NCBI RefSeq assembly: GCF_028737215.1
Contig: NZ_JAQZAM010000005.1
Coordinates: 1-64,000, forward strand
DNA: 64,000 nt
Reading direction: 5' to 3'
DNA from: Actinomycetospora chibensis
GTDB lineage: Bacteria > Actinomycetota > Actinomycetes > Mycobacteriales > Pseudonocardiaceae
How positions within the stretch are numbered: the stretch's first letter is position 1; each line of letters starts with the position of its first letter. Below the pieces are notes generated by a model. It made no database searches. It had not been told where the DNA came from and was given only the letters and a program-made list of their open reading frames with translations. The position numbers and the translations under genes were made by a program. Positions 6,270 through 53,370 of the stretch are shown here, one piece after another.

Positions 6270-6320
6270 GTCAGCCCGGGGGTCATGCTGACGTTCGACG
6301 TCAGGAAATCCCCCAGCTCG
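6270..6320 (+). repeat. 3'-end element A1
   Basis: It starts 5 bases after the Rpf-like stop, in sense orientation. It carries GTCAGC...GCTGAC, the palindrome TGACGT-TCG-ACGTCA, and the conserved tail AGGAAATCCCCCAGCTCG shared with A3 and A4. The upper hairpin is degraded to about 6 bp in this copy. Confidence 0.75.
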
Positions 6321-6381
6321 ACCAGGCCAGGCGCCACGAAGGGCAGCGGAGCTGCCGCGCCGAAGGCCGCGCGCTGACACG

Positions 6382-8034
6382 ATGTCCGGCATGTCCGACG
6401 CCGACGTCATCGTCGTCGGGGCCGGCCTGGCCGGTCTCGTCGCCACCGCCGAGCTCGCCGACGCAGGACGCCGGGTGATCCTGCTCGACCAGGAGCCCGA
6501 GGCGTCGCTCGGCGGGCAGGCGTGGTGGTCGTTCGGCGGGCTGTTCCTCGTCGACAGCCCCGAGCAGCGCCGCCTGCGCGTGCGCGACTCGTTCGACCTC
6601 GCCTGGTCCGACTGGACCTCCAGTGCCGGCTTCGACCGCCCCGACGAGGACCGCTGGGGCCGCGAGTGGGCCCGCGCCTATGTCGAATGGGCCGCCGGCG
6701 AGAAGCGCCCGTGGCTCCACGCGATGGGGGTGCGCTTCTTCCCCGTCGTCGGGTGGGCCGAGCGCGGCGGGGCCTCGGCCACCGGCCACGGCAACTCGGT
6801 CCCCCGCTTCCACATCGTCTGGGGCACCGGTCCCGGCATCCTCGAGCCGTTCCTGCGCCGCGTGCAGCAGGCCGTCGACGACGGTCGGGTGACGATCCGC
6901 TTCCGTCACCGCGTCGACGCGCTCGACGTGACGGCCGGCGCGGTGACCGGCGTGTCCGGTTCGGTCCTCGAGCCCTCCGACGTCGCCCGCGGCGAGTCGA
7001 GCTCGCGCACGGCGGTCGACACGTTCAGCCTCGGCGCACCCAGCGTCGTCGTCACCTCCGGCGGCATCGGCGGGAACCACGACGCCGTCCGCGCGGCCTG
7101 GCCGGAGCGCCTCGGCCCGCCGCCACAGGACATGATCTCCGGCGTCCCGGCCCACGTCGACGGCCGCATGATCGGCATCAGCGAGGACGCCGGTGGGCGC
7201 GTCGTCAACCGCGACCGGATGTGGCACTACACCGAGGGGATCGTCAACCACTCCCCCGTGTGGCCGCTGCACGGCATCCGGATCCTGCCCGGGCCCTCGT
7301 CACTGTGGTTCGACGCGGAGGGCCACCGGCTGCCCGCGCCGCTGTGGCCCGGCTTCGACACGCTCGCGACGCTCGGGCACATCCGGCGCACCGGGCACGA
7401 CCACACGTGGTTCGTGCTCACCCAGCGGATCCTCGAGAAGGAGTTCGCCCTCTCCGGCTCCGAGCAGAACCCCGACTTCACCGGCCGCGACATTCGCCTG
7501 ACGCTGCAGCGCGTCCGCCCCGGGCCCACCGAGCCGGTCGCGGCGTTCCAGCGCTCCGGGGAGGACTTCGTGCAGGCCGACGACCTGGCCACCCTCGTCG
7601 ACCGCATGAACGCCCTCACCCCGACGCCGCTGCTGGACGCGGCGAACGTCGAGCGCGAGGTCCTCGCCCGCGACGCCGAGCTCGCGAACCCGTACGGCAA
7701 GGACGGCCAGCTCGCCGCCGTCCGCAACGCGCGCGCCTACCTCGGCGACCGCCTCGTCCGCACCGCCCCGCCGCACCGGATCCTCGATCCCGCGGCCGGG
7801 CCGCTCGTCGCGGTCAAGCTGCACATCCTGACGCGCAAGACGCTCGGCGGGCTGTGGACCGACCTCGACGGCCGTGTGCTGCGCGCCGACGGGTCCCCGC
7901 TGCCGGGGCTGTACGCGGCGGGCGAGGCCGCGGGCTTCGGCGGCGGCGGGGTGCACGGCTACCGGTCGCTCGAGGGGACGTTCCTCGGCGGCTGCCTGTT
8001 CTCGGGGCGTCAGGTGGGACGCGCGCTGGCCTGA
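6382..8034 (+). CDS. FAD-binding dehydrogenase, fumarate reductase / 3-ketosteroid dehydrogenase-like flavoprotein
   Basis: 550 residues. The dinucleotide-binding motif [21 protein letters not shown] is at the N terminus, followed by an acidic [16 protein letters not shown] stretch. The C terminus [17 protein letters not shown], then [13 protein letters not shown], closes the FAD site. This is the FAD_binding_2 family of electron-bifurcation-independent flavin dehydrogenases, most similar in layout to the large cytosolic FAD-binding dehydrogenases of actinomycetes. The oxidised substrate is not evident. ATG 6391 (MSDADV) is an alternative start; neither has a clear ribosome-binding site. It stands alone between two 3'-end elements. 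Confidence 0.8.
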
Positions 8035-8046
8035 GCGCGCCTCATG

Positions 8047-8098
8047 ATCGACGCGGCTTTCCTGGCGTTCAGTGTCAGCGTGGACGCAGGGCCGGCAC
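8047..8098 (-). repeat. 3'-end element A2 (degenerate)
   Basis: On the minus strand, TGACACTGAACGCCAGGAAA follows directly on the stop of the wall-protein gene. It aligns with the core and tail of A1, A3 and A5. The upstream arm is reduced to a short GCG-T-CCA-CGC-like stem. Confidence 0.55.
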
Positions 8099-8545
8099 TC
8101 AGCGAGTGAGCCGCCGGCGGCGCTGGAGCAGCAGCATCGCCGCGACGATCACGAGCAGCACCGCCGCGCCGCCCAGGACGCGCAGGGTGGTGGCGCCCGA
8201 GCCGGTGTCGGCGACAGTGAGGGTCGCCTGCAGCGGGCGTCCTCCACAGGTCGCGGTGACGGTGACGGGGCCCGGGGCCGCGTCGGCGGCGACGGTCAGG
8301 GTCGAGGACACCGACCAGGGCTGGTGGCCCTCGGGGTCGCGCTGCCACGGGCCGCCCGTCACGCCGGGCCCGCCGGCCGGGGTCGTCGCCTCCTCCTCGC
8401 AACCCATCTGCGCGGCGACGGTGGCGCCGGGCGCGACCGGGGTGCCGTCGCCGATCACCAGGCCGGGGTCGGCCAGCGCCGTCCCGGCCCCCAGCGACAG
8501 GAGGGCCACCACCAGCATCGTCAGCACCAGGCGCACACCGGTCAC
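8099..8545 (-). CDS. Secreted, membrane- or wall-anchored small protein with LPxTG-like sorting region
   Basis: 148 residues from GTG 8545. A signal peptide (about 1-25, ending TALA-DP) is followed by an Ig-like region of about 80 residues with two cysteines. The end is a sorting-signal layout: VADTG, a hydrophobic stretch [20 protein letters not shown], and the basic tail [13 protein letters not shown] resembles the LAxTG signal of class E sortases of high-GC Gram-positives, so the protein may be covalently attached to the cell wall; plain membrane anchoring is the alternative. Function unknown. It is convergent with the FAD dehydrogenase. Confidence 0.65.
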
Positions 8546-8624
8546 CGTGCCACCCGCAGCGCGTCCGGTGGGTCTGCGTCACCGCACACGTTCAGGGCAC
8601 CGTGGCCCGGGGCAGCCAGCTCCC

Positions 8625-9617: not shown

Positions 9618-9651
9618 CCTGCACGTGGGCACCTTCCGGGGCGGACAGTGC

Positions 9652-10728: not shown

Positions 10729-10773
10729 GCGGGGATCCTAGGGGCGGGCGACGATCACGTCTGGTCCGTGGCC

Positions 10774-10824
10774 CGAGATGGGGGATTTCCTGACGGTGGG
10801 TGTCAGCCTGGTCCCCAGGCTGAC
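10774..10824 (-). repeat. 3'-end element A3
   Basis: A 10-bp perfect hairpin (arms GTCAGCCTGG and CCAGGCTGAC, 3-base loop) at 10802-10824 is followed on the minus strand by TGAC-N7-GTCA and the tail AGGAAATCCCCCATCTCGGG. The element contains the stop codon and last codons of the DUF3253 gene and is read in sense. Confidence 0.85.
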
Positions 10825-11081
10825 GCGCCGCCGCCCGCCCGACGCAGCCGCACCGGCCCTCGGGCCGTGGCCGGGTCGACGACGATGCCACGCTGGGTCA
10901 TCTCGACCGTCCCCTCGTCGACCAGCCGGGCGGCGGCGGCGCGGGCGTCGGGCATGAGGTCGCGCCACGACTCCGGGGCGACACGCCTCGCGGCCTCCGA
11001 CGGGCAGATGGTCGCACCGTCGGTCCGCTGGCCGAGCAGCCCCACGATCGCATCGGCGAGAGCCCGCTCGGTGTCAGCCAC
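10803..11081 (-). CDS. DUF3253 family protein
   Basis: 92 residues from GTG 11081. The core GATICPSEAARRV, ESWRDLMPDARAAAARL and TQRGIVVDPATARGPVRLR is the complete DUF3253 domain, a small winged-helix-like family of unknown function. The last residues, SAWGPG followed by stop, are encoded by repeat A3, so the repeat has supplied a new C terminus. It is divergent from the SRPBCC gene with an 82-base shared promoter region. Confidence 0.85.
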   Translation of the reverse strand: MADTERALADAIVGLLGQRTDGATICPSEAARRVAPESWRDLMPDARAAAARLVDEGTVEMTQRGIVVDPATARGPVRLRRAGGGASAWGPG

Positions 11082-11163
11082 GCCACCGGATACCCACCCG
11101 CACGGGCGGGTACCGGGCAGTGGACGCGCGATGGCACCCTGCTCCGTCGCCGGAAGGAGTGTC

Positions 11164-11598
11164 GTGAGCGCACCGGTGACGAGGACCGTGGAGATCGCCG
11201 CGCCCGTGCCCCGGGTGATCGAGGTGATCTCCGATCTGGAGAACACCGATCGCTGGGCCAACGAGGCGAAGCAGGCGAAGGTCCAGGAGCACGACGAGCA
11301 GGGCCGGCCGACCACGATCGCGGTGACCCTCGGCGCGCTGACCTTCACGACGACGGCCACCTACACCGTGGCCTACACCGACTCGTCGGTGACGCTGACC
11401 TGCGTCGACGCCAAGCTGATCCGCGAGAGCACGATCGCCTACACCGCGAGCGACGCCGGCGACGGGAACACCCACCTCGAGATGGCCTCGACGATGGAGG
11501 TCACCGTCAAGGGCGTCCCGCGCTGGGGCCTGGAGCGCGCGATGGGCTCGAGCGCCGAGAAGAACCTGCAGTCGATCAAGAAGGACGCGGAAGGCTAG
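11164..11598 (+). CDS. SRPBCC (START-like) family protein
   Basis: 144 residues from GTG 11164, with ribosome-binding site GGAAGGAG 5 bases upstream. The beginning TRTVEIAAPVPRVIEVISDLENTDRWAN is typical of polyketide-cyclase/START-like helix-grip proteins that bind hydrophobic ligands. The C terminus carries the long helix (WGLERAMGSSAEKNLQSIKK). Ligand and role are unknown. It is convergent with the CoA-transferase gene. Confidence 0.8.
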   Translation: MSAPVTRTVEIAAPVPRVIEVISDLENTDRWANEAKQAKVQEHDEQGRPTTIAVTLGALTFTTTATYTVAYTDSSVTLTCVDAKLIRESTIAYTASDAGDGNTHLEMASTMEVTVKGVPRWGLERAMGSSAEKNLQSIKKDAEG

Positions 11599-11620
11599 AT
11601 CGCGCCGAAGAGACCGCATG

Positions 11621-16580: not shown

Positions 16581-17681
16581 ATGAAGATCACCACCGTCGA
16601 GGCGATCCCCCTCGCCATCCCCTACCGGCGTCCCTTCACCTTCGCCAGCGGGAAGGTCACCGCGGCCGACCACGTCCTCGTGCGGATCACCACCGACGAC
16701 GGGCTCGTCGGGCACGGCGAGGCGCCGCCGCGCCCCTACACCTACGGCGAGACCGCGGCGTCGATCGTCGCCGCGGTGCGCGACCTGTTCAGCCCCGTGC
16801 TCGTCGGCGCCGATCCCTTCGCCCGCGAGCGCATCCGCGCCGACCTGGCCCGCACCGTCGCCAACAACGCCGCCCGCGGCGCGATCGACGTCGCGCTCTG
16901 GGACCTCGTCGGCCAGGCGTGCGGCCAGCCCGTGCACGTGCTGCTCGGGCACGCCGCCGACGACGTCCGCGTCGCCCACATGATCGGGCTCGGGACGCCG
17001 GCGGAGATGGTCGCCGACGCCGTCGAGATGAGCGACGAGTACGGCGTCGACGCGTTCAAGGTCAAGGTCGGCCGGGACCTCGGCCACGACCTCGTCGCGG
17101 TGCGGGAGCTGCGCCGCGAGCTCGGCGACGCGGTCGAGCTCTACGCCGACGCGAACCGGGGCTGGGACGCCGACACCGCCATCGTGGCCGCCCGCCGGCT
17201 CGACGACCTCGCAGTGACCATGCTCGAGGAGCCCAACCCCGCCGACGACGTCCTCGGCCGGCGCCGGATCGTGCGCGAGAGCCCGATCCCGATCGTCGGC
17301 GACGAATCGACGATCACCCTGGGCGGCGTCGCCCGCTCGCTGCTCGACGGCGACTCCCAGTCCATCAGCGTCAAGGTCGCGCGCACGGGGTTCACCGACT
17401 CCGCCAAGATCGTGGGGCTGTGCGAGGGCCTCGGCGTCACCACGATGGTCGGCAACCAGATCGACGGCATGCTCGGCAGCGTCGCCTCCACCGCGCTCGG
17501 CTGCGGCCTGCGGGCCCTCGCCCACCACCCGGTCGAGGTCACGAACCACCTGCTCATGACCGACGACGTCATCGCCGAACCTCCGGTGATCGCCGAAGGC
17601 CGCGCCGCCGCACGCCAGGCCCCCGGGCTCGGTGTCACGATCGACCCCGACAAGCTCGCGCACTACCGCGTCGACCGGTAG
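16581..17681 (+). CDS. catB: Muconate cycloisomerase
   Basis: 366 residues, enolase superfamily. Catalytic Lys pair K160/K162 (FKVKVG), metal ligands Asp190 (YADANRG), Glu216/217 (LEEPNP) and Asp241 (VGDEST), and Lys265 (SISVKVAR) on the other face of the barrel are all present. It converts cis,cis-muconate to muconolactone. Dipeptide epimerases and o-succinylbenzoate synthases share the fold, but the catA-catB-catC order settles the role. It starts 13 bases after the LysR stop. Confidence 0.9.
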   Translation: MKITTVEAIPLAIPYRRPFTFASGKVTAADHVLVRITTDDGLVGHGEAPPRPYTYGETAASIVAAVRDLFSPVLVGADPFARERIRADLARTVANNAARGAIDVALWDLVGQACGQPVHVLLGHAADDVRVAHMIGLGTPAEMVADAVEMSDEYGVDAFKVKVGRDLGHDLVAVRELRRELGDAVELYADANRGWDADTAIVAARRLDDLAVTMLEEPNPADDVLGRRRIVRESPIPIVGDESTITLGGVARSLLDGDSQSISVKVARTGFTDSAKIVGLCEGLGVTTMVGNQIDGMLGSVASTALGCGLRALAHHPVEVTNHLLMTDDVIAEPPVIAEGRAAARQAPGLGVTIDPDKLAHYRVDR

Positions 17682-17690: not shown

Positions 17691-17719
17691 GGTGCAAGCC
17701 GTGCGGCCTCGCTTGCACC
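17691..17719. repeat. Inverted repeat between catB and catC
   Basis: GGTGCAAGC (17691-17699) and GCTTGCACC (17711-17719) are perfect 9-bp arms around an 11-base GC-rich loop. It starts 9 bases after the catB stop. It could be a processing hairpin or a partial terminator that sets relative levels of catB and the downstream genes. Confidence 0.6.
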
Positions 17720-17760
17720 CAGCGCCAGGACATCCGCATCCTCGATCCCCTGGAGACCCC

Positions 17761-24988: not shown

Positions 24989-25417
24989 ATGCGCATCGCG
25001 GACCTCATCGCGCGCAAGGGATCAGCCGTGCTCACCGTGCCGCCCGACGCCCCGGTGTCGAACCTCCTGGAGGTGCTCGCCGAGCGCAACGTCGGCGCGG
25101 CGGTCGTGTGCGAGGGCGACCGACTGGCCGGGATCGTCTCCGAGCGCGACGTGGTGCGCCACCTGCACCAGCGGGGCGCGAGCCTCCTCGACGCGCCCGT
25201 CTCCGAGATCATGACGACGGTCGTGGCCACCTGCCGGTTCGAGGACGACGTCCAGACGCTGAGCCGCACCATGACCGAGCGGCGGATCCGCCACATCCCG
25301 GTGGTGGACGAGCAGGAGAGGCTGAGGGGGATCGTCAGCATCGGCGACGTCGTGAAGTCCCGGATCGACCAGCTCGAGGAGCACCGCAACCAGCTCGAGG
25401 CCTACATCTCGGGGTGA
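24989..25417 (+). CDS. CBS-domain pair protein
   Basis: 142 residues made of two CBS motifs: about 8-62 (GSAVLTVPPDAPVSNLLEVL to GIVSERDVVRHL) and 75-133 (MTTVVATCRFEDDVQTLSRT to GIVSIGDVVKSRIDQ), plus a short C-terminal helix. Free-standing CBS pairs bind adenosyl ligands (AMP, ATP, NAD) and often sense energy status; in actinobacteria the class is close to hypoxia-induced Hrp1-like proteins. It sits between the MFS gene and an aldo/keto reductase. Confidence 0.87.
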   Translation: MRIADLIARKGSAVLTVPPDAPVSNLLEVLAERNVGAAVVCEGDRLAGIVSERDVVRHLHQRGASLLDAPVSEIMTTVVATCRFEDDVQTLSRTMTERRIRHIPVVDEQERLRGIVSIGDVVKSRIDQLEEHRNQLEAYISG

Positions 25418-25482
25418 CCCACGCCCCGGCACGCGTCGTTCGTCCATCGTTCAACCGCTTCGGGAGCGGGTACGCGACGGGC

Positions 25483-26457
25483 ATGGAGATGACGAGACTG
25501 GGCAAGACCGAGCTGCAGGTGTCGCGGATCGCGTTCGGCACCTGGCAGGTCTCGGGCGAGTGGGGTTCCTATGACGCCGACCAGGCGCAGCGCGCCATCC
25601 GCCACGCGCTGGACCTGGGTGTGAACTTCTTCGACACCGCCCAGGCCTACGGGTTCGGCGAGTCCGAGGAGGTCCTGGCCAACGCGCTGCGCGGCGAGCT
25701 CGATCGCGACCGGGACTCGGTGGTCATCGCGACCAAGGGCGGTATCAACCCCGGCACCGACCGGCCGCGGGACTCGCGCCGGGAGTGGCTGCGCTCGGGC
25801 GTCGAGTCCTCGCTGAAGGCGATGAAGATCGACCACATCGACCTCTACCAGGTGCACTGGCCCGACGAGCAGACGCCGTTCGAGGACACCGCCGGGTACC
25901 TGCAGGAGCTCGTCGACGAGGGCAAGATCCGCCACGTCGGCGTGTCGAACTACGACGCCGACCAGATGGCGGCGTTCGACCGGCGTCGCCCGGTGGAGAC
26001 CCTGCAGCCGCCGTACCACCTGTTCCGCCGCCACATCGAGGACGGCGTGCTCCCCTACGTGCGCGAGCAGGACATCGGCACGCTCGTCTACTCGCCGCTG
26101 GGCTCGGGACTGCTGACCGGCTCGATGGACGAGAACACCACGTTCGAGGACTCCGACTGGCGCGCGCAGGCCTCGGCGTTCCAGGGCGAGAAGTTCCGGC
26201 AGAACCTCGAGGTCATCGAGCGGCTGACGTCGTTCGCCGCGGACAAGGGCGTCGAGGTCTCGCAGCTGGCGATCGCCTGGGTGCTCGCGCAGGACGGGAT
26301 CGACGTCGCCATCGTCGGCGCCCGGTCGGAGAAGAACATCGAGCGCTCGCTGGCTGCGGTCGACGTGCAGCTGTCCGCCGACGACCTCGCCGAGATCGAG
26401 AAGATCACCGCCGACGGCGTCCAGGTCACCGGCGCGGCTCCCGAGGGCGTGTCCTGA
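25483..26457 (+). CDS. Aldo/keto reductase
   Basis: 324 residues. The tetrad is Asp51 and Tyr56 (DTAQAYG), Lys85 (IATKGG) and His125 (YQVHWPD). The phosphate-binding end VAIVGARSEKNIERSL is typical of NADP(H) enzymes of the YajO/Tas-like group. It differs clearly from the other aldo/keto reductase at 8625-9617. The start may be ATG 25483 or 25489. It ends at the large inverted repeat at 26470-26597. Confidence 0.88.
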   Translation: MEMTRLGKTELQVSRIAFGTWQVSGEWGSYDADQAQRAIRHALDLGVNFFDTAQAYGFGESEEVLANALRGELDRDRDSVVIATKGGINPGTDRPRDSRREWLRSGVESSLKAMKIDHIDLYQVHWPDEQTPFEDTAGYLQELVDEGKIRHVGVSNYDADQMAAFDRRRPVETLQPPYHLFRRHIEDGVLPYVREQDIGTLVYSPLGSGLLTGSMDENTTFEDSDWRAQASAFQGEKFRQNLEVIERLTSFAADKGVEVSQLAIAWVLAQDGIDVAIVGARSEKNIERSLAAVDVQLSADDLAEIEKITADGVQVTGAAPEGVS

Positions 26458-26469: not shown

Positions 26470-26526
26470 TGTCAGCGGAGTGCCGTCGCAGACACTGAAC
26501 GTCCGTATTCTTCCGTCGATCACCGG
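26470..26526 (+). repeat. 3'-end element A6 (left arm of a 57-bp inverted pair)
   Basis: Starts 12 bases after the aldo/keto reductase stop, sense to it. It carries TGTCAGCG, AGTGCCGTC, AGAC-N7-GTCC and CGTAT and pairs with A7: 47 of 57 positions are complementary across a 14-base loop. Confidence 0.75.
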
Positions 26527-26540
26527 GGCGCCCGCGCCGG

Positions 26541-26597
26541 CCGGTGATCGACGTACCGATACGGACACTCAACGTCTGTGACGGCACTTCGCTGACA
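26541..26597 (-). repeat. 3'-end element A7 (right arm of the inverted pair)
   Basis: Mirror copy of A6, 5 bases after the glycosyltransferase stop and sense to that gene. The innermost 13 bp (GTCGATCACCGG region) are perfect. Together A6 and A7 can form a large cruciform or a bidirectional terminator between two convergent genes. Confidence 0.75.
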
Positions 26598-26602: not shown

Positions 26603-27769
26603 CTACCGCGCGAGCTCCGCCTCCACGATGTCGGCGGCGGCCGGGGCCCCGCCGCCGCGGCGTATCACCTCGCGCTGCTCGACCAGGCGCGCGGCCACGT
26701 CGGGCGAGGACGTGAGCTCCCGCAGGGCCTCCCGGAGCCGGTCGGCCGTGATCTCCTCCGACGGGATCGTCCGCGCCACCCCCAGCTCCTCGAGCATCGC
26801 GGCGTTGCCGAACTGGTCGACCGCACGCGGCACGGCGATCATCGGCACGCCCTGGAAGAGCCCCTCGGCGCACCCGCCCATGCCGGCATGGGTGACGAAC
26901 GCGCTCGCGCGCCCGAGCACCCCGAGCTGTGGCACCCACCGGTGCGCGGTGACGTTCGGCGGCAGCTCGCCCAGCGCGTCGAGGTCGACGTGCGGGCCGA
27001 CGGCCAGCACCACTTCCCACGGCAGCGGACCGAACGCCTCGGCGCAGACCCGGAAGTCGTCGGGGTGGTCGTGGTACGCCGAGCCGAACGAGACGAGGAC
27101 GAGCGGCCGCGCGGGCTCCGGCCACTGCTCCTGCGCCGCCCGCCGCGCGAGGTCGGGCCCGACGAAGGTGTAGATCGCCTGGTCGACGCGGTCGGCGAAC
27201 GGCTGCAACGCCCGGGGGATCTCGACGATCGACCGGCGCGGCCGCCCGACGAGATGCTCGGGCTCGTCGTCGATCCCGAACTCCGCGAGCCACGCCGAGA
27301 ACCGCGCGAGGTACGCCCGGTACTCCGGTGTCCGGCGGTACACCAGGTCGTCGGCGAGGTCGGACTCGAAACCGTCCCAGGCCACCATCGCCGGCGAGAG
27401 CTGCACCGCGGGGATGCCCCAACGCCGGGCGAGCACGATCGCGGGGTAGCCGCCGATGTCGTAGAGCGCGACGTCCGGGACGTCGTCACCCAGCGCCGCC
27501 TCGATCTGCGGCGACGTGTGCACCGCCTCGTCGAGGAACAGCGCGGTGCCGGCGACGGGGTCGGTGGGCCACTGCTCGCCGCGACCCTGGTCGGGCAGCA
27601 CGGAGGTGTGGACGAGCGGCGTGGCGCCCGTGGCCGCGACCATCTCGGCGAAGGGCGCGGGGATCGCGTAGGTCACCCGGTGACCGCGCGCGACGAGCTC
27701 GGCGATGACGGGCAGATGGGGATGGGTGTGGCCGTGCGCGCCGGCGCCGACCATCAGGACATGGGCCAT
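26603..27769 (-). CDS. Macrolide-type glycosyltransferase (MGT family, GT1)
   Basis: 388 residues, GT-B fold. The N-terminal acceptor domain starts MAHVLMVGAGAHGHTHPHLP. The nucleotide-sugar motif is THAGMGGCAEGLFQGVPMIA, then VPRAVDQFGNA, the GT1 signature. The length and sequence layout match the MGT family that includes macrolide-inactivating OleD/OleI-type and Mgt enzymes, which transfer glucose from UDP-glucose to the 2'-OH of macrolides. No biosynthetic genes surround it, so self-protection or xenobiotic detoxification fits best. Upstream lies a leaderless short ORF and a hairpin that may make it antibiotic-inducible (separate entries). Confidence 0.83.
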   Translation of the reverse strand: MAHVLMVGAGAHGHTHPHLPVIAELVARGHRVTYAIPAPFAEMVAATGATPLVHTSVLPDQGRGEQWPTDPVAGTALFLDEAVHTSPQIEAALGDDVPDVALYDIGGYPAIVLARRWGIPAVQLSPAMVAWDGFESDLADDLVYRRTPEYRAYLARFSAWLAEFGIDDEPEHLVGRPRRSIVEIPRALQPFADRVDQAIYTFVGPDLARRAAQEQWPEPARPLVLVSFGSAYHDHPDDFRVCAEAFGPLPWEVVLAVGPHVDLDALGELPPNVTAHRWVPQLGVLGRASAFVTHAGMGGCAEGLFQGVPMIAVPRAVDQFGNAAMLEELGVARTIPSEEITADRLREALRELTSSPDVAARLVEQREVIRRGGGAPAAADIVEAELAR

Positions 27770-27891: not shown

Positions 27892-27949
27892 GAGCCTTCG
27901 GCGGCGTGCGGGCGACCGATTTCCCGGCCGGCCGAGTCGAGTGCGTGGC

Positions 27950-27990
27950 GATACGGACACTCGACGTCTGCGGCGCCACGCCGCCGACAG
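27950..27990 (-). repeat. 3'-end element A8
   Basis: Same subfamily as A6 and A7: on the minus strand TGTCGGCG, CAGACGTCGAGTGTCC and CGTATC. About 80 % identical to A7. It begins 7 bases after the Dabb-protein stop and is sense to it. Confidence 0.7.
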
Positions 27991-27997: not shown

Positions 27998-28294
27998 TCA
28001 GTCCGGTAGCGCGAACTGGATCCGCTCGATCGACGCCGAGATCGGCGCGAAGAGCTCCCGGCGGATGCGGTTGTGCTCCGGGTCGGCGTCGTAGATCCGG
28101 TAGGCCTCGTCGGAGACGAAGTCGGCCGTCAGCGCGTAGGACGCGTTGCCCTCGCGCAGCCCGCGGTCCCGACCCCCGACCAGGCGGAACTCGACGCCCT
28201 CGACCGTCAGGTCCCGCAGGGCCTGGATCGCGGCCTCGACCTGCTCGGCCGGCACGCCCTCACGGACCCGGCCCACCACCACGTTGCGGATCAT
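27998..28294 (-). CDS. Dabb-family (stress-responsive alpha/beta barrel) protein
   Basis: 98 residues forming a single dimeric ferredoxin-like Dabb domain: MIRNVVVGRVREGVPAEQVE, then LRDLTVEGVEFRLVGGRD and YALTADFVSDEAYRIYDADP with the conserved H near EHNRIR. Members include polyketide cyclases and stress proteins; no catalytic role is evident here. It may be co-transcribed with the downstream end of the ABC operon, from which it is 21 bases away. Confidence 0.82.
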   Translation of the reverse strand: MIRNVVVGRVREGVPAEQVEAAIQALRDLTVEGVEFRLVGGRDRGLREGNASYALTADFVSDEAYRIYDADPEHNRIRRELFAPISASIERIQFALPD

Positions 28295-34431: not shown

Positions 34432-35554
34432 TCAGTGCGACGTCCTCGCCGCGCAGCGGGCGTGCACCTCGGCGAGGCCCGTGCGGGTGACCGCGACGAC
34501 CAGGCGGTCGCCCACCTTGAGGCGGCGCTGCGGGCGGGGCGGGGAGTCGAGCACCGCGTCGTGGGCGGCGCCCCGGTAGACCCCGACCACCCGCACCTCG
34601 CCCTCGCTCTCGGCCGCCGACGCGGGCAGGCCCGCGAGGAGCGCGCTGCGCCCGATCGGCACGTCGGCGAGCCGCCTGGACCGTGCGGGCCACGGCCGAG
34701 ACGTGGGTGTCGGGGTCGGCGGCGCCCGCGGAGTCGAGCACCGTCAGGTAGATCGCGTCGCCCCACGAGAGGCCGGCGAGCGTCGCGAACGCGACGGTTC
34801 CGAGCACGAGGAGCGCCAGCAGCCCGAGGGTCGCGCGGGCCAGCGAGCGGGTCATCGAGGCCCGCGTCCGGCGCCACATCAGCGTCAGCACCCGCCGCCA
34901 CGCGGCCCGGCGCGTGCCGACGAGGCGGCCCTGGCGGTGCCGGGCGACGCGGGCGAGCACCAGGTCGGCGACGGCATGGTGGGTGGGCAGCAATTCCGGG
35001 GCGCCGCGGTCGGGGCGTCGGGCGAGGCCGGTGACGATCGCCGTCGGCCGCACGTCCGCGCGGTCGGCGACGACCATCGGGTAGCCGGGCAGGTCGACGC
35101 TCTGGCGGGTGCGGGCGCCGATCGCCGCGGTGACGAACGCCGGCGCGGCGGTCGCCGACACCGACAGCACGGTGGCCGTCGGCAGCAGCATCCGGATCCG
35201 CCCCGAGAGCGCCGGCGCGTGGAGCCGGACGACGAGGCGCACCGACGGCGCGAGCTCCTGGACCGCCAGCGCGCGGTGGATGTTGACGACGTCCTCGCGG
35301 TGAACGAACGCCACGCACGTCGCGCTCCCGACGTCGATGGCACGGAAGGTCTCGTCGTCGGGCTCCGCGACCTCCACGACCTCGACCCCGTGGATCGCCC
35401 GCAGACGGTCGACGACCGCACTCCCGGGTGCGGTCAGGACGACGACGTCGGTCGCCCCGCGACGCGACTGTCGCAGCAGCGCCTCGACCATCCGCAAGGA
35501 GAGCATGTCCTCGCCGCAGACCACGAACCGCTCCCGGAACCCCCCGAAGGTCAC
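34432..35554 (-). pseudogene. NAD-binding (TrkA/RCK-type) ion transport protein, internal deletion and frameshift
   Basis: Starting at GTG 35554, one frame encodes a Rossmann-type NAD-binding domain (FVVCGEDMLSLRMVEALLRQ), an MSV-like second half, and a membrane segment LGLLALLVLGTVAFATLAGL with WGDAIYLTVLDSAGAADPD. Related actinobacterial proteins then continue with another membrane helix, a second NAD-binding domain and a TrkA-C domain. Here, near 34680-34690, the frame breaks and a different frame continues with RLADVPIGRSALL and the TrkA-C end VRVVGVYRG to VGDRLVVAVTRTGLAEV. Roughly 200 residues are missing. It is most likely a decayed gene; an assembly collapse is the alternative. Confidence 0.75.
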
Positions 35555-35588
35555 GGACGTGGACCCTAATCCTGGGGATACTGCGGCC

Positions 35589-36986
35589 ATGGCGGGTTCA
35601 GCGCGGTACGTCGCCGGGGTCGATTCCTCCACCCAGGCCACCAAGGTCCTCGTCGTCGATCCGGAGGACGGGCGGGTGGTGCGGGAGGCACGCCGTCCGC
35701 ACCCGGACGGCACGGAGGTCGATCCCCGGGCGTGGTGGGACGCGCTGGCGGGCGCGCTCGGCGAGGTGGGCACCAGCGACGTCGCGGCGATCGGGGTCGC
35801 GGGCCAGCAGCACGGGATGGTGCTGCTCGACGAGCACGGCGAGCCGGTGCGCGACGCGCTGCTGTGGAACGACACCCGGTCCGCGCCGGACGCCACGGCG
35901 CTGATCGAGGAGCTCGGCGGGGCCGCCGCGTGGGCCGAGGCGGTCGGCACGGTCCCGGTCGCGAGCATCACCGCCACCAAGCTGCGCTGGACCTCCCGCG
36001 CCGAGCCGGACGTCGCCGCCCGTGCGCGCCGGGTCATGCTGCCCCACGACTGGCTCACCTGGCGGCTGCGCGGCTCCCCCGCCGACGCGACCACCGACCG
36101 CGGCGACGCCTCGGGCACCGGCTACTGGTCGACGGTCACCGGCGAGTACCGCCCCGACCTGCTCGAGATGGCGTTCGGGCGCGCGCTCGACGTGCCGCGG
36201 GTCGCGGAGCCGGGCGAGGTCGTCGGGCACACGCCGGACGGGCTCGCGGTCTCGGCGGGCACCGGGGACAACGCGGGCGCGGCGCTGGCGATCGCCCCGG
36301 CGGAGGGCGAGGTGGTCATCTCCATCGGCACCTCGGGCGCGGTGTTCACGGGCCACGACCGGCCGAGCACCGACGCCTCGGGGCTCGTCGCCGGGTTCGC
36401 CGACGCCCGCGGCGGCTACCTGCCGCTGCTCGCGACCCTCAACGCCGCCCGGGTGCTCGGGGTCGGCGCGGCGCTGCTGGGCGTGGAGCCGGACGAGTTC
36501 GACGCGCTGGCCCGCGCCGCCTCGCCGGGCGCCGACGGCCTGGTGCTGCTGCCCTACCTCGACGGCGAGCGCACCCCCGACCGCCCCGACGCCCAGGGCC
36601 GCTACGTCGGGCTGACGACGGCCAACGGCACCCGCGAGAACCTCGCCCGCGCCACCGTCGAGGGGATGCTGTGCGGGCTGGCCGACTGCGTCGACGCGCT
36701 GATCGACCAGGGGGTGCCGGTGCGCCGGGCCCTGCTGATCGGTGGCGGCTCGCGCTCCGGGGCCGTGGCGGACCTCGCCCCCGAGGTGCTCGGCCTGCCC
36801 GTCGAGGTGCTCTCGCCGCAGGAGTACGTCGCCCTCGGCGCGGCGCGGCAGGCCGCCTGGGCCCTGCGGGGCGAGGAGCCGGGCTGGACCGTGGCCCGCG
36901 AGACCAGCCGCGACGTCACCGACGCCTCGATCTCCGAGCAGGTCCGCGCCCGCTACGCCGACGTCCGCGACGGCCACGCGCCGTAG
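35589..36986 (+). CDS. xylB: Xylulokinase
   Basis: 465 residues, FGGY carbohydrate kinase. The phosphate-1 loop is GVDSSTQATKVLVVD, the substrate loop IGVAGQQHGMVLLD and WNDTRS, and the adenosine-site GTGDNAGAALAI and VVISIGTSGAVFTG motifs are intact. It phosphorylates D-xylulose, the common entry point of xylose, xylitol and arabitol catabolism. No isomerase or polyol dehydrogenase is present in the window. The neighbouring polyol-type ABC importer and LacI regulator suggest one catabolic unit split by the decayed gene. It is divergent from that pseudogene. Confidence 0.9.
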   Translation: MAGSARYVAGVDSSTQATKVLVVDPEDGRVVREARRPHPDGTEVDPRAWWDALAGALGEVGTSDVAAIGVAGQQHGMVLLDEHGEPVRDALLWNDTRSAPDATALIEELGGAAAWAEAVGTVPVASITATKLRWTSRAEPDVAARARRVMLPHDWLTWRLRGSPADATTDRGDASGTGYWSTVTGEYRPDLLEMAFGRALDVPRVAEPGEVVGHTPDGLAVSAGTGDNAGAALAIAPAEGEVVISIGTSGAVFTGHDRPSTDASGLVAGFADARGGYLPLLATLNAARVLGVGAALLGVEPDEFDALARAASPGADGLVLLPYLDGERTPDRPDAQGRYVGLTTANGTRENLARATVEGMLCGLADCVDALIDQGVPVRRALLIGGGSRSGAVADLAPEVLGLPVEVLSPQEYVALGAARQAAWALRGEEPGWTVARETSRDVTDASISEQVRARYADVRDGHAP

Positions 36987-36990
36987 GTGG

Positions 36991-37042
36991 GTCAGCCTGG
37001 GAGCCAGGCTGACGTCCAACGTCATGAAGGCCCCCAGCTCGG
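36991..37042 (+). repeat. 3'-end element A4
   Basis: Begins 4 bases after the xylB stop, sense. The 10-bp perfect hairpin has arms GTCAGCCTGG and CCAGGCTGAC with loop GAG. It is followed by TGACGT-CCA-ACGTCA and the tail GAAGGCCCCCAGCTCGG. Confidence 0.85.
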
Positions 37043-37059
37043 TTCGCTCCTCCTCGGGA

Positions 37060-37079
37060 ATTGAGCGTGGTCGGCTCAT
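37060..37079 (+). promoter_or_regulatory. HAIR-like box (HspR binding site) upstream of hsp20
   Basis: ATTGAGC-N7-GCTCATG fits the HspR-associated inverted repeat CTTGAGT-N7-ACTCAAG. It lies 61 bases before the hsp20 start, and its first half TTGAGC could double as a -35 box. HspR repression and heat induction are the expected regulation. Confidence 0.7.
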
Positions 37080-37139
37080 GTTGCATGAGTCGAGGGCCCG
37101 CAAGGTCGGGCCGCCTTCAGCCACCGAGGAAGAACCACC

Positions 37140-37619
37140 ATGAGCACGCTCGTCCCCTGGGGCCCACGCTTCGTCGACCCGTTCGCCGTCGCCCCGGCCC
37201 TGTTCCGCCGCGCCACCCCGAGCCGCGGGACCACCTGGTACGCCCCGACCACCGACGTGGTGCGCGAGGGTGACGACGCCGTCGTCCGCCTCGAGCTCCC
37301 GGGGGTGGACGTGGCGAAGGACGTCACCGTCGAGGTCCACGGCGACCGCCTGTCCGTCCGCGGCGAGCGCCGCGACGAGCAGGCCGGCGAGGGCTACCGC
37401 CAGAGCCGCTACGGCTCGTTCCGTCGCAGCTTCACGCTGCCCGGGCACGTCGACGCCGACGCGGTCTCCGCGTCGTACGACGCCGGCGTCCTGACGGTGC
37501 GCGTCACCGGCGCCCACGCCGAGGCCACCGAGCCCGGCGCCCGCCGCATCACGATCGACGGCGTCCCGGCGCCGGAGGAGACGGAGTCCACCGAGACCCC
37601 GGAGGCCCCGGCCGCCTGA
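37140..37619 (+). CDS. Small heat-shock protein, Hsp20/alpha-crystallin family
   Basis: 159 residues. The alpha-crystallin domain (about 38-130) runs from APTTDVVREGDDAVVRLELPG to the conserved ASYDAGVLTVRV motif (A-x-x-x-n-GVL). VEVHGDRLSVRGERRDEQ is the second signature. N- and C-terminal extensions are flexible, the latter Pro/Glu-rich. Hsp20 proteins hold unfolding proteins in large oligomers. The HAIR-like box upstream and a strong hairpin downstream bound it as a single-gene unit. Confidence 0.93.
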   Translation: MSTLVPWGPRFVDPFAVAPALFRRATPSRGTTWYAPTTDVVREGDDAVVRLELPGVDVAKDVTVEVHGDRLSVRGERRDEQAGEGYRQSRYGSFRRSFTLPGHVDADAVSASYDAGVLTVRVTGAHAEATEPGARRITIDGVPAPEETESTETPEAPAA

Positions 37620-37696
37620 CGCACGCCGACCGGGGCAGCGACCCCGCTGTTTCGCTGTCCGGACGCACGACATCCCCGTTGATCACGGGGCGCGAC

Positions 37697-37724
37697 GCCC
37701 GCGGGACCACGAGGTCTCGCGGGC
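37697..37724 (+). terminator. Hairpin terminator downstream of hsp20
   Basis: GCCCGCG-g-GACC (37697-37708) pairs with GGTC-t-CGCGGGC (37713-37724) around the loop ACGA: 11 pairs with one mismatch. It lies 78 bases after the hsp20 stop and is the strongest hairpin before the convergent operon. Confidence 0.65.
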
Positions 37725-37750
37725 ATCGTCGTGTCAGAGTCCCGCGAGCG

Positions 37751-37799
37751 GGGGGATCGATCTCCTGACGGTGAACGTCAGCGTGGCCCCCACGCTGAC
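37751..37799 (-). repeat. 3'-end element A5
   Basis: The hairpin arms on the plus strand are GTCAGCGTGG and CCACGCTGAC (loop CCC). Relative to A3 and A4, the seventh pair changes from C-G to G-C on both sides, a compensatory change. Core TGACG-N5-CGTCA and a tail AGGAGATCGATCCCCC follow on the minus strand. It includes the stop codon of the SCO6045-like gene. Confidence 0.85.
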
Positions 37800-38119
37800 C
37801 ACCACCGGCGTCGTCCCCGCCCGAGCACACCGGCGGCGCGCAGGTGCGCGACGAAGGCGTCGGCGTCGGCGTGCATCGACGTCCCGGTCCGCCGGGGGTT
37901 CGCGCTGATCCACGCGTCGAGGCGCGGGGTGAGGTCGGCGCCGAGGCGCTCGTGGACCTCGACCGGGAGCAGGCGCGCGAGCACCCGGCGCCGCTTCGCG
38001 CGCAGCGCCGAGGCCTCCAGCGCCACCCGCGACGCGTCGATTCCCGCCGGCGCCGGGCCGCCGGCGACCAGGGCCGCGAGCAGCGCCGCCTGGCGCTCCG
38101 CCAGCTCGGACCGGCTCAT
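37778..38119 (-). CDS. SCO6045-like protein, partner of the DUF692 enzyme
   Basis: 113 residues. It starts [20 protein letters not shown] and continues [21 protein letters not shown], then [28 protein letters not shown], the conserved core of the small proteins encoded next to DUF692 genes in Streptomyces and relatives (SCO6045-type). A role as recognition partner, like MbnC or TglI beside their DUF692 enzymes, is inference. The ATG overlaps the DUF692 stop (ATGA). The last residues, SAWGPR, and the stop are encoded by repeat A5. Confidence 0.75.
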
Positions 38120-46869: not shown

Positions 46870-46889
46870 TCAGCACGGTCACGCCCGAC

Positions 46890-46926: not shown

Positions 46927-46933
46927 CGTGCGT

Positions 46934-47917: not shown

Positions 47918-48079
47918 CGGCGCCACCTCCCCCGACCCTCACGTCACGTATACCCCCTTCCCGCGGTCCACAGCGGGGCCCGGAGCGCGGTCGCCGGCAC
48001 GGCCGATCGGGGCCCGGGGTGGGCGCCGGGCACCCGGACGCGACACACTGGCCGCCCGACGACGGCGAGGGAGCAGCTG

Positions 48080-48574: not shown

Positions 48575-48587
48575 CCGGAGTGCGCGC

Positions 48588-49058: not shown

Positions 49059-49116
49059 CCGGCGCGTGGCCCGGGTAGTGATCACGGGACGTTGACGTCC
49101 ACCCCGGGGAGACTCC

Positions 49117-49443
49117 GTGCCGACACCCACCGACGACGACCGCACCCTGCTGACGGTCATCGCGCGCATGACCGCGCTGCCCGGCAAGGAGCAGCAGCTG
49201 CGCTCCGAGCTCGAGCAGTTGGTCGAGCCGACGCTGGCCGAGGACGGCTGCGTCAACTACGACCTGCACGTCGCGGTCGATGACCCGGCCACGTTCTTCT
49301 TCTACGAGAACTGGACGAGCCCTGGGCACCTCGAGGCGCACCTGGGCAACAGCCACCTGGTGGAGTTCGCCGGTAAGCTCGACGAGTACCTCGTCGGCGG
49401 TGCCGACGGGCTGGTGATCACTCAGCTGCAGCGGATCAAGTGA
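49117..49443 (+). CDS. Antibiotic biosynthesis monooxygenase (ABM) domain protein
   Basis: 108 residues from GTG 49117 (GGGGAGA upstream). LLTVIARMTALPGKEQQLRSEL, GCVNYDLHVAVDDPATFFFYENW and HLGNSHLVEFAGKL form the complete dimeric alpha/beta ABM fold. Members act as quinol or polyketide monooxygenases or as signalling-molecule (LsrG-like) isomerases. It heads a run of overlapping genes (DUF3500, carboxylesterase). Confidence 0.88.
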   Translation: MPTPTDDDRTLLTVIARMTALPGKEQQLRSELEQLVEPTLAEDGCVNYDLHVAVDDPATFFFYENWTSPGHLEAHLGNSHLVEFAGKLDEYLVGGADGLVITQLQRIK

Positions 49444-50585: not shown

Positions 50586-51985
50586 GCACGCCCGTCGCCG
50601 ACCCGACGGTCACGCTGCCCGACGGCGTGCTGCGCGGTCGGCGGCGTGGTGACGTCGTGGAGTTCCTCGGCATCCGCTACGCCACAGCGGCGCGCTTCGC
50701 CCCGCCGCGGGCGCCGGAGCCGTGGACCGGCGTCCGCGAGGCCGTGGAGCGCGGCCCGACCGCGCCACAGCTGCCCGCGCGGGTCGCCGCCGTCACCGGG
50801 CCCTCCCCCGACGACGGCGCGCCGCAGGACGAGGACTGCCTGCGCGTCGACGTCCGTGCCCCGGCCGCGGCGCTCGCCGACGGCGTGCCGCGCCCCGTGC
50901 TCGTGTGGCTGCACGGCGGCGCCTACGTCATCGGGTCGGCGGCCACGTCCTGGTACGACACCGCCCGGCTGGTGAGCGAGGGCACCGACGGCGGGGTCGT
51001 CACGGTCAACGTGGGCTACCGGCTCGGCGTGCTCGGGTGGCTCGCCGCGCCTGGGGTGTCCGACGGCAACCTCGGCCTGCTCGACCAGCTCGCCGCCCTG
51101 CGCTGGGTGCGCGACCGCATCGCGGCCTTCGGGGGCGACGCGGACCAGGTCACGGTGATGGGCCAGTCCGCGGGCGCGCACGCGATCGCCTGCCTCATGA
51201 CCGTCCCCGAGGCCCGGCCGCTGTTCCGGCGCGCGATCCTGCAGAGCGGCCAGCTCGGGCTCGGGCTGTCGTCCCCGCAGCGGGCCGCCCGCGTGGCGGG
51301 GTACGTGACCGAGGGCCTGCAGGGCGCCGACCCGGCGACGGCCGGGGTCGAGGACGTGCTCGCCGCCCAGCGCCACGCGATGATCCGCGCGGCCGGACCG
51401 GGCGGGCTCGACTCGTCGCCGGCCTTCGCGCCCGTCGACGGCGTCCCACCGCTGTCGGCCGGTGTCACCTGGGCCGACGCGGCGTCGGCGGGTCACGACG
51501 TGCTCGTCGGGTCGACCGCCGACGAGGCCGAGACGTTCGTGCGCATCAGCCCGGCCCTGTGGGGGCTCAAGCGGCTGCCGGTGCTCGGGCGGCTCACCTC
51601 GGTGGGCGCCGCGATGGCGACGCGGCGGGTGTTCGGCGCGCCGGCCGAGCGGTTCGCGGACGACGCGGCGACGGCCGGCGCGCACACGTTCAGCTACCGC
51701 TTCGCCTGGCGTGCGCCCGCGTCCGGGCTCGGGGCGTGCCACTGCATCGAGCTGCCGTTCCTGTTCGGGGCGCGCGACGCCTGGGTGGACGCCCCGATGC
51801 TGCGCGGTGCCGACTGGGACGCCGACGTCGAGCCGCTCGGTGCGGTGGTGCGCGCGGCGTGGCTGCGCTTCGTCCGGACCGGGAACCCCGCGACCGACGC
51901 CCTGCCCTGGCCGTCGCACGCGGCGGGCGGAGGGCCGACGGTGGTGCTCGACGCCTCCGTCGCCGGGAACGGGCACACTCGATGA
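50582..51985 (+). CDS. Type-B carboxylesterase
   Basis: 467 residues. VLVWLHGGAYVIGS carries the oxyanion hole, VTVMGQSAGAHAIA the nucleophile Ser and GACHCIELPFLFG the His; EDCLRVDV is the family box. FLGIRYATAARFAPP is the typical start. It hydrolyses carboxylic esters, and bacterial members accept p-nitrobenzyl or carbamate esters. It is translationally coupled to DUF3500. Confidence 0.9.
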   Translation: MSTPVADPTVTLPDGVLRGRRRGDVVEFLGIRYATAARFAPPRAPEPWTGVREAVERGPTAPQLPARVAAVTGPSPDDGAPQDEDCLRVDVRAPAAALADGVPRPVLVWLHGGAYVIGSAATSWYDTARLVSEGTDGGVVTVNVGYRLGVLGWLAAPGVSDGNLGLLDQLAALRWVRDRIAAFGGDADQVTVMGQSAGAHAIACLMTVPEARPLFRRAILQSGQLGLGLSSPQRAARVAGYVTEGLQGADPATAGVEDVLAAQRHAMIRAAGPGGLDSSPAFAPVDGVPPLSAGVTWADAASAGHDVLVGSTADEAETFVRISPALWGLKRLPVLGRLTSVGAAMATRRVFGAPAERFADDAATAGAHTFSYRFAWRAPASGLGACHCIELPFLFGARDAWVDAPMLRGADWDADVEPLGAVVRAAWLRFVRTGNPATDALPWPSHAAGGGPTVVLDASVAGNGHTR

Positions 51986-52013
51986 CGTCCCCCCGAACTC
52001 CGAGGAGAACACG

Positions 52014-52295
52014 ATGCCCCTGATGCGCAGGGTCGCGGCCGCCGGCGCGGCCATCGCCGCCGCGCGGCGCTACGCGCGGCAGAACCCCGAGAAGGTCAAC
52101 CGCTACGCGGACCAAGCTGCGGCGTTCGTCGACGGCAAGACCGGCGGGCGATACCGCAAGCACATCGACTCGGCGATGCGCCAGGTCCGCAAGCAGACCA
52201 GCGTCCCGGGCCGCACCACCCCCTTCCCGGAGCCGCAGTACTACGGGCCGCAGTCCGCGACGCGCTACCCGAGCCAGCGGACCGACCGGCCGTAG
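52014..52295 (+). CDS. Antitoxin-like small protein (MT0933/Rv0909 family)
   Basis: 93 residues. RRYARQNPEKVNRYADQAAAFVDGKTGGRYRKHIDSAMRQ (described, two helices around the KTGGRY turn) is the core of MT0933-type proteins. GAGGAGAAC lies before the ATG. In M. tuberculosis the relative is annotated as an antitoxin, but no toxin gene is next to it here and many family members are orphans. It follows the esterase by 28 bases. Confidence 0.65.
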   Translation: MPLMRRVAAAGAAIAAARRYARQNPEKVNRYADQAAAFVDGKTGGRYRKHIDSAMRQVRKQTSVPGRTTPFPEPQYYGPQSATRYPSQRTDRP

Positions 52296-52342
52296 GCGAT
52301 CTCGATGTGACGCCGGCGCCGGCAGTGGGCACTCCGACGACC

Positions 52343-52528
52343 ATGGGACTGAACTACCGCGGTCGTCGCAAGCTGGGCCCGCTGCCGGTGTGGCGCAACG
52401 TCTCGCGCTCCGAGGGCAACGGGAAGACCGTCTCCTGGACGGTCAAGCTCTTCGGCGTGAGCTGGAACAGCCGCACGAAGAAGAAGACCGTCGACCTGCC
52501 CGGTGGCTACTCCTACACCTCGGAGTGA
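52343..52528 (+). CDS. DUF4236-like small protein
   Basis: 61 residues. MGLNYRGRRKLGPLPVWRNV and SWTVKLFGVSWNSRTKKKTV, then the aromatic GGYSYTSE end, resemble the short DUF4236 proteins, which begin with the same RKR-type LGP motif. Basic, probably DNA or RNA associated, but function unknown. It overlaps nothing and ends 1 base before the SDR start. Confidence 0.6.
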   Translation: MGLNYRGRRKLGPLPVWRNVSRSEGNGKTVSWTVKLFGVSWNSRTKKKTVDLPGGYSYTSE

Positions 52529-52529
52529 C

Positions 52530-53357
52530 GTGCCTGCTCCCGTCGTCCTGATCACCGGCGCCACCGACGGCCTCGGCCGGGCCCTCGCGCACGACCTCGT
52601 CGGGCGCGGCGACGAGGTGCTCGTCCACGGCCGCGACCCCGAGCGGCTCGCCGCGACCGTCGACGAGATCCGCGCGGCGACCGGCGTCGAGGTCGCCTCG
52701 TACCGCGCCGACCTCGCCGAGCTGGCCCAGGTCCGCGAGCTGGCCGACCGCGTCGCCGCCGACCACCCGGCGCTCGACGTGCTTCTCAACAACGCCGGCA
52801 TCGGAGCCGACGTCCCCGGGGGCGGCGAGCGCCAGGAGAGCGTCGACGGGCACGAGCTCCGGTTCGCGGTGAACTACCTCGCGGGGCACCTGCTGACCCG
52901 GCGGCTGCTCCCGTCCCTGCGGGCGGCGGGCAGCGAGCGCGGCCCGGCGCGGATCGTCATGGTGTCGTCGGCCGGGCAGGCGGCGATCGACTTCGACGAC
53001 GTCATGCTGGAACGCGACTACTCGGGCTGGCGGGCCTACTGCCAGAGCAAGCTCGCGCAGATCCTCGACGTCTACGACCTCGCCGACGACCTCGACCCGG
53101 GCGTCGTCACGGCGACGGCCCTGCACCCGGCGACGTACATGCCCACGAAGATCGTGCCGTCGCCGATCAGCACGATCGCCGAGGGCGTGGCGGCGACGGC
53201 GCGGCTCGCGGTGGACCCGGAGCTCGCCGGTGTCACCGGCCGCTACTTCAACGGCGTGCGCGAGGCCCGTCCCGATCCACAGGCGCAGGACCCGCAGGCC
53301 CGGGCACGGCTGCGGGCGATCGCAGATGAGCTGGTCGGGGAGCTGACCCAACCCTGA
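52530..53357 (+). CDS. Short-chain dehydrogenase/reductase
   Basis: 275 residues from GTG 52530. NAD(P)-binding TGATDGLGRAL (TGxxxGxG), LLNNAGIG (NNAG), catalytic Ser in IVMVSSAG and YxxxK as YCQSK are all present, in a classical SDR. Substrate unknown. Its stop codon TGA is the first three bases of the 3'-end element A9. Confidence 0.9.
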   Translation: MPAPVVLITGATDGLGRALAHDLVGRGDEVLVHGRDPERLAATVDEIRAATGVEVASYRADLAELAQVRELADRVAADHPALDVLLNNAGIGADVPGGGERQESVDGHELRFAVNYLAGHLLTRRLLPSLRAAGSERGPARIVMVSSAGQAAIDFDDVMLERDYSGWRAYCQSKLAQILDVYDLADDLDPGVVTATALHPATYMPTKIVPSPISTIAEGVAATARLAVDPELAGVTGRYFNGVREARPDPQAQDPQARARLRAIADELVGELTQP

Positions 53358-53370
53358 CGGAAGGTGTCAG
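53355..53370 (+). repeat. 3'-end element A9 (core only)
   Basis: TGACGGAAGGTGTCAG fits TGAC-N7-GTCAG, in sense orientation directly on the SDR stop codon. No upper hairpin is present. Weak member. Confidence 0.4.

Follow-up and report, generated by a model that had tools for sequence, protein, structure and literature searches.

Short palindromic repeats behind stop codons in Actinomycetospora: a family whose copies are probably mobile and replaced in place

Short palindromic elements lie within a few bases of the stop codons of several genes in the first 64 kb of contig C51 of Actinomycetospora chibensis, which raises the question of whether they act as signals at the 3' ends of transcripts or are repeated DNA that is tolerated there. 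This stretch of 64,000 nucleotides, here called the window, opens a contig of 351,533 bases in a genome of 6.18 Mb and has a G+C content of 74.1%. A first-pass annotation had labelled the elements A0 to A9 and suggested that they might be terminators, RNA protection elements or protein targets. In the reading that we regard as probable, they form a palindromic family of Actinomycetospora comparable to repetitive extragenic palindromes (REPs) and Rickettsia palindromic elements (RPEs): non-autonomous DNA, tolerated behind stop codons, whose copies would be swapped in place by insertion and loss. This reading would add an actinomycete branch to the REP/RPE kind. With 18 genomes of the genus at hand and synteny over about 64 kb to seven relatives, two matters become testable, namely the spread of REPs without the transposase RAYT and the use of repeats as replaceable in-frame protein inserts.

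The repeat family and its structure

The central dyad TGACGT-N3-ACGTCA, with at most two mismatches and on both strands, gave 178 matches against 72 for its reversed control. When run on the own genome, a covariance model (R1), built from 21 copies mostly of the subfamily called type I, gave at least 95 matches at E<=1, a figure that includes mirror-strand matches of the same copies. Because the genome-wide searches scored only 150 candidates for the own genome and only 91 for each genome in a survey of 61 genomes, such counts are lower bounds. Within the 0.91 Mb of the own genome that was read, 82 separate places remained, and 80 credible copies after two weak ones (L091:5001 and window:42031) had been dropped; L272 (overlapping L245), L128 (overlapping L104/L105, unsearched) and mirror-strand matches were also removed before counting. 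Matches occurred in all 18 Actinomycetospora genomes of the survey, at least 5 to at least 86 per genome, and in at least 6 of the 43 others, with at least 8 in the top one. At E<=0.001, six iterated subfamily profiles, used beside R1, found 134 copies across 1.46 Mb. The 80 own copies and the distribution across genomes bear out the first-pass claim of a structured, lineage-specific repeated element.

A search of the window at Rfam gathering scores returned no match. Spread by phages or plasmids was considered and set aside, as A1, the one copy searched, had no match at E<=0.01 in either collection. In the literature naming this organism group, covered in part and with subscription papers outside, we found no published description of these repeats. 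Copies are mildly clustered, 6 of the 12 R1 copies on C51 falling in the window, and their mixed strands on that contig (6 plus, 6 minus) gave no replication-strand polarity.

Nine copies lie in the window. Genes, here and below, were called by an in-house codon-usage caller and not taken from annotation, and some of the in-gene calls probably stem from misplaced starts or from open reading frames (ORFs) that are spurious.

6268..6325, plus strand: A1, type I, 3 nt past the stop of the transglycosylase-domain gene 5884-6264 (+)
8041..8098, minus strand: A2, type II, in a convergent gap, directly adjoining the stop of 8099-8545 (-)
10769..10826, minus strand: A3, type I, covering the last 24 nt of 10803-11360 (-)
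17692..17749, plus strand: type II, overlooked in the first-pass annotation, 10 nt past the stop of 16581-17681 (+)
26470..26526, plus strand: A6, type IV, sense to 25414-26457 (+), tail-to-tail with A7
26541..26597, minus strand: A7, type IV, sense to 26603-27769 (-)
27938..27990, minus strand: A8, type IV/VI, sense to 27998-28294 (-)
36989..37046, plus strand: A4, type I, 2 nt past the stop of the FGGY kinase gene 35337-36986 (+)
37744..37801, minus strand: A5, type I, in a convergent gap, covering the final 24 nt of 37778-38119 (-)

A3 supplies a stop codon, the TGA inside its GCTGAC being the stop of the called gene that it overlaps. A1, A3, A4, A5 and A2 are members of the family as proposed, with model scores of 73.9, 60.0, 66.3, 58.7 and 37.4 bits, respectively. 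A6, A7 and A8 are related elements, though of subfamilies IV/VI, detected by separate profiles. The two remaining candidates drop out: A0 (15 bp, TGACGCTCAGCGTCA) is absent from the model matches and from the nine window copies, and A9 consists of a stop codon, a ribosome site and the GTG with which the next gene starts, most of it conserved in the syntenic species.

The elements are palindromic and 55-75 bp long, with a sense consensus of about GTGTCAGC-C/G-TGGGGGCCA-C/T-GCTGACGTTCAACGTCAGGAAATCCCCCA. Their first 8-12 bases pair with columns 16-27 to form hairpin 1; in a longer hairpin CTGACGT pairs with ACGTCAG and, beyond an internal loop, GGGGG with CCCCC. That the first hairpin exists and that two hairpins exclude each other, as the first-pass annotation had proposed, is confirmed. 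Its "single-stranded tail", by contrast, can be a stem, because it pairs with the GGGGG in the loop of hairpin 1 and thereby gives the longer rival hairpin. Type III carries a block of about 17 nt within the inner loop, type IV/VI comprises A6-A8, and type V has the sequence GCGAGCGATGC... Otherwise unlike subfamilies (for example L065:5001-5076, L068:5001-5076, L074:5001-5075 and the A8 site of A. callitridis) carry, nested in the inner loop, a block of about 17 nt (..AGCACGCCGATAGGG..), as if it were a module itself. An additional 5' hairpin, formed by the upstream flank and the first arm, had looked persuasive when types II and V were inspected by eye but was rejected as not clearly above controls: the mean stem was 5.53 in the GTGCAAGC class (n=17), against 5.42+-0.12 with upstreams swapped and 5.17+-0.27 when shuffled, and 5.97 in the TCAG class (n=64), slightly above the corresponding 5.82+-0.13 and 5.62+-0.14.

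Subfamily differences at orthologous sites and inside enzymes

Along the synteny with seven species, a gene end often carries a copy of a different subfamily, or none. Behind the FGGY kinase stop (A4), all nine near-clade loci (L157-L165) hold a model match, of differing subfamilies, and no match is listed for L166-L170. The A1 site holds type II in A. callitridis, type V in A. cinnamomea and a type II-like copy in A. straminea, and is empty in NBRC 106375 and A. succinea; the site at 17692-17749 holds other subfamilies in NBRC 106375, A. lemnae, A. straminea and A. cinnamomea and is empty in A. succinea and A. lutea. The kinase gene has its best named relatives in Actinomycetospora, with A. 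callitridis at the top, and over a stretch of 28 kb the window is 93.8% identical in nucleotide sequence to that species. Between these two genomes A1, A4 and A5 are switched (the A5 site holding type II in A. callitridis) and A2, A3, the copy at 17692, A6 and A8 are not: A2 is of the same type, A3 is nearly identical, and A8 has an additional block of about 19 nt in A. callitridis. Vertical inheritance is also present, with A3, A6 and the copy at 17692 ranking first there.

Across the nine window sites, the copy of the relative was more than 5 points closer to another own copy than to the one at the same site in 20 of 27 comparisons, a best-of-pool measure that itself favours "switch" and in this respect counts against our reading. 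In the rank test, which is fairer, the same-site own copy came first in 5 of 27 comparisons, with a median rank of 36 of 83. Profiles II and V merged partly during iteration, which leaves the labels II and V loose; swapping was therefore judged from reading the sequences together with the identity and rank tests.

Among 21 pairs of neighbouring copies at most 120 nt apart, 12 have the same direction, 8 are tail-to-tail and 1 is head-to-head with overlapping hits. The same-direction neighbours are not duplications, because their mean identity is 0.70 against 0.74 for random pairs. In a separate case, the tail-to-tail dimer A6/A7 (26470-26597) corresponds in A. callitridis to one short single palindrome, as if the middle had been deleted.

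We infer from these patterns that the elements probably propagate as small non-autonomous DNA and persist wherever insertion is tolerated, chiefly in the short stretch just past a stop codon, but also within proteins, in frame. At an occupied site, a new copy of another subfamily would land beside the old one, in many cases with the same orientation. Later the pair would lose one member, probably the old one, and the site would be kept in this way while its sequence is swapped.

The same differences could arise if the elements were ordinary dispersed palindromes subject to ectopic recombination, with gene conversion between copies changing the subfamily in place. High copy number and copies that mix type I and II parts by eye are in line with this account, which we nevertheless judge improbable. 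Where the subfamily differs, the 5' flank often differs as well, and the unlike same-direction pairs point to insertion. Moreover, 18 of the 20 switched same-site copies are 0.60-0.76 identical over about 55 bp (the other two 0.82 and 0.88), and such identity over this length makes a poor substrate for homologous recombination.

Copies also occur in frame inside enzymes, where both filled and empty relatives are found, and Pfam confirms both genes concerned. A GT2 glycosyltransferase gene of the own genome contains a type III copy in sense. This site is filled, at the same codon position, in 9 of 9 near-clade loci and empty in the 5 of 5 distant-clade loci compared, with three further fragmentary loci left out and one genome without a match. 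By eye, its occupant is type II in A. callitridis, type V in A. cinnamomea and NBRC 106375, type I in G007 and a mixture of I and II in A. straminea and A. lemnae, and two copies stand in a row in A. lutea and A. succinea. At the second site a biotin carboxylase gene holds an antisense copy within its ATP-grasp domain, the Pfam domain spanning the insert. Among the loci compared here, 10 of 11 orthologues are filled and A. lutea is empty; the copies of G016 and G013 were recognised by eye, those of NBRC 106375, A. lemnae and A. succinea carry extra sequence inside, and two best hits of other genomes with 54-55% identity, also empty, were taken for paralogues. All in-gene segments compared are multiples of three. 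Among the 140 distinct 58-nt copies (out of 163) that served the fold and reading-frame statistics, the open frames, counted with no chance control, numbered 138 (S2), 129 (S1) and 53 (S0) in sense and 138 (A0), 123 (A2) and 18 (A1) in antisense. CofH-like genes of the own genome (L071:4682-5767) and of A. succinea (L284:2691-3773) each contain an antisense copy within the called ORF.

A further step, which we advance tentatively and hold to be doubtful, would be a palindromic system without a recognisable transposase, in which occupied sites serve as landing places for other subfamilies. Sites, in-frame ones within core enzymes among them, might then be kept for the age of the clade while the DNA and the encoded protein segment are swapped between species as a cassette.

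Gene ends, direction and RNA folding

The 80 own copies comprise 28 in convergent gaps, 23 in sense and 5 in antisense in same-direction gaps, 10 in divergent gaps, 12 in called genes and 2 at the ends of fragments. Regions not chosen for their elements (the window, the rest of C51 and regions of nine relatives; six profiles) hold 56 copies: 30 in sense and 1 in antisense, 12 in convergent and 2 in divergent gaps, 10 in called genes and 1 at an end. These are not independent counts because orthologous sites recur there. Where own regions had been chosen for their elements, the same profiles gave 78 copies, with 20 in sense and 8 in antisense, 26 in convergent and 11 in divergent gaps, 11 in called genes and 2 at ends. 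The four relatives contributed 61 copies, with 15 in sense and 5 in antisense, 20 in convergent and 9 in divergent gaps, and 12 in called genes.

A sense stop codon lies at -30..+20 nt of 40 of the 67 own gap copies, against 22 when copies are flipped and a mean of 24.1 and maximum of 33 in 2000 random rounds. For syntenic copies the figure is 9 of 21 (flipped 1, random mean 3.4, maximum 10), and for the four relatives 15 of 50 (flipped 9, random mean 11.1, maximum 19). The proposed enrichment just behind stop codons with a sense bias is thereby substantiated in the own genome. In the four relatives the bias is weak, and the outcome that the first-pass annotation had named as refuting its proposal, copies at random positions and orientations, is to this extent partly seen. 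The stronger statement that every copy is in sense fits the nine window copies, four of them between convergent genes, but fails genome-wide, where 5 antisense and 10 divergent copies occur. The sense bias behind stops is real but not a rule.

This bias, with a spacing of 0-20 nt, is what would be expected of a lineage-specific RNA 3'-end element (a terminator without a U-tract, a 3' protection element or a hairpin switch gated by ribosomes) selected in sense behind genes. Two exclusive hairpins with cross-subfamily covariation in both, and the retention of position while sequence changes, would suit such an element too. Orientation and 3'-end position alone, however, do not show RNA function, and we consider the RNA account unlikely on several grounds. 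Copies sit in frame mid-way in conserved enzymes, one site in sense and one in antisense, which makes a terminator unlikely as their main nature. An intrinsic terminator is not supported either, as no T run longer than 2 occurs in the last 10 and next 10 nt of the 80 own copies (longest run 1 in 68, 2 in 12). The mean fold energy is -22.8 kcal/mol in sense and -25.5 in antisense, the sense strand being lower in 29 of 140 copies. Some orthologous gene ends carry no copy, 10 of the 80 own copies lie between divergent genes, and the bias is weak in the four relatives. The terminator, 3'-protection or RNA-binding role offered earlier as the main nature of the elements is accordingly unsupported.

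Covariation was examined in a column-numbered alignment of 66 of the 80 copies, from which 12 longer copies, L077:5079 and L089:5001 are omitted. The compensatory change in A5, cited earlier as RNA evidence, is weak because columns 9-19 do not form a standard pair in 45 of the 66 copies. Within the 21 mostly type I copies no covariation above shuffles was found. Across types I and II, column pairs 4-24 and 5-23 of hairpin 1 and 11-47, 13-45 and 24-34 of the long hairpin covary, column 24 doing so with both of its partners. The covariation score exceeds all 500 shuffles, and paired cells and cells changed on both sides also exceed shuffles; the number of pairs changed on both sides does not, in either hairpin. 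Such cross-subfamily covariation is a matter of few events seen many times. The proportions of G-U and A-C cells give a mixed picture, in which selection on the sense-RNA fold is overall unsupported: with pairs using columns 26-27 excluded, both hairpins together hold 56 G-U against 85 A-C cells.

Several of these results weigh against the mobile family that we favour. Passive tolerance does not predict the sense bias, which is marked in the own same-direction gaps and in the unchosen regions, though weaker in the chosen regions and the four relatives. The covariation between subfamilies would fit a functional RNA as well, and in the inner stem outside columns 26-27 G-U cells outnumber A-C cells by 25 to 10, as the RNA account would have it. 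No movement was directly observed. Of the features that mark a MITE, the inverted ends are imperfect, and by eye the divergence between filled and empty sites is too great for a target-site duplication to be seen. A Y1 transposase (RAYT, PF01797) was found in 0 of 18 genomes of the genus, against 5 of 14 control genomes, in a search confined to this transposase family, and spread driven by RAYT was rejected on this result.

Copies of the mobile family that lie behind genes might still influence transcripts or ribosomes secondarily: PMC12306157 reports that REPs at most 15 nt from a stop codon stall ribosomes in E. coli; the same report can be read in favour of a selected RNA element. A site for a transcription factor or nucleoid protein, to which the excess of the dyad over its reversed control might point, is very improbable: 10 of 66 copies flanked by genes on both sides lie in divergent gaps, though on C51 the divergent ones make up 15.5 of the 40.0 kb of sequence in gaps of at least 50 nt, and the arm sequence varies across subfamilies with pairing conserved.

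Relation to known palindromic repeats

In PMC3733652 (Di Nocera et al. 2013), REPs of the GTAG and CGTC superfamilies are described as lying less than 20 bp from 3' ends, mostly in convergent or same-direction gaps, with termini that may supply a stop codon, some copies in ORFs, and dimers. The Actinomycetospora repeats resemble them in being high-copy, short, palindromic, adjacent to 3' ends and stop-supplying, with some copies in ORFs and with dimers. The earlier view that the elements are set apart from REP sequences does not hold, given that REPs so described have the same 3'-end closeness, gap preference, stop-supplying termini and in-gene copies. That source also mentions CGTC REP families without a dedicated transposase and a swap-like case in recB of two Xanthomonas species. 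By the general definition in PMC12306157, REPs are short similar palindromes with many copies per genome, mostly extragenic; the repeats described here agree with it (80 own copies, 67 in gaps) and, at 55-75 bp, are longer than the E. coli REPs of 14-40 nt given there.

Unlike REPs, they have no GTAG/CGTC end tag, as the 66-copy consensus begins GTG and ends about TCGA, with CGTC inside the paired centre (by eye), and they are longer and form two overlapping, exclusive hairpins. The unusual parts are the gene-direction bias and the repeated replacement of subfamilies at fixed orthologous sites. With Rickettsia RPEs, which PMC10969869 presents as several families of about 150 bp found in frame in unrelated protein genes, the repeats share the division into subfamilies and the in-frame position inside genes of several functions, here the glycosyltransferase and the carboxylase. 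The likeness concerns these habits, and the host differs, being an actinomycete with 74% GC in which most copies are intergenic. Intrinsic terminators are likewise GC-rich hairpins in sense shortly behind a stop codon; the absence of a U-tract, the in-frame coding copies and the sequence conservation of a repeat family distinguish the present elements from them.

Near-perfect palindromes of about 50-56 bp were seen by eye in a second Actinomycetospora clade and two other genera of the family (L141 in G031, L144 in G002, L146 in G016, L147 in G036). Those of other genera (L141, L147), single examples judged by eye, are similar to the repeats in size and central dyad but differ in that their arms are almost fully complementary and their sequence is unrelated.

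Within the window, A4 (+) and A5 (-) form inverted copies around an Hsp20 gene (36989-37801). Because this gene is inverted at the same place in A. succinea and A. lutea, repeats of this kind may be break points of inversion at the locus. Relatives that share the gene order of the window also conserve a block before the gene (37055-37115, GGGAATTGAGC...GGCTCATGTTGCATGAGTC), which may be the Hsp20 promoter or operator.

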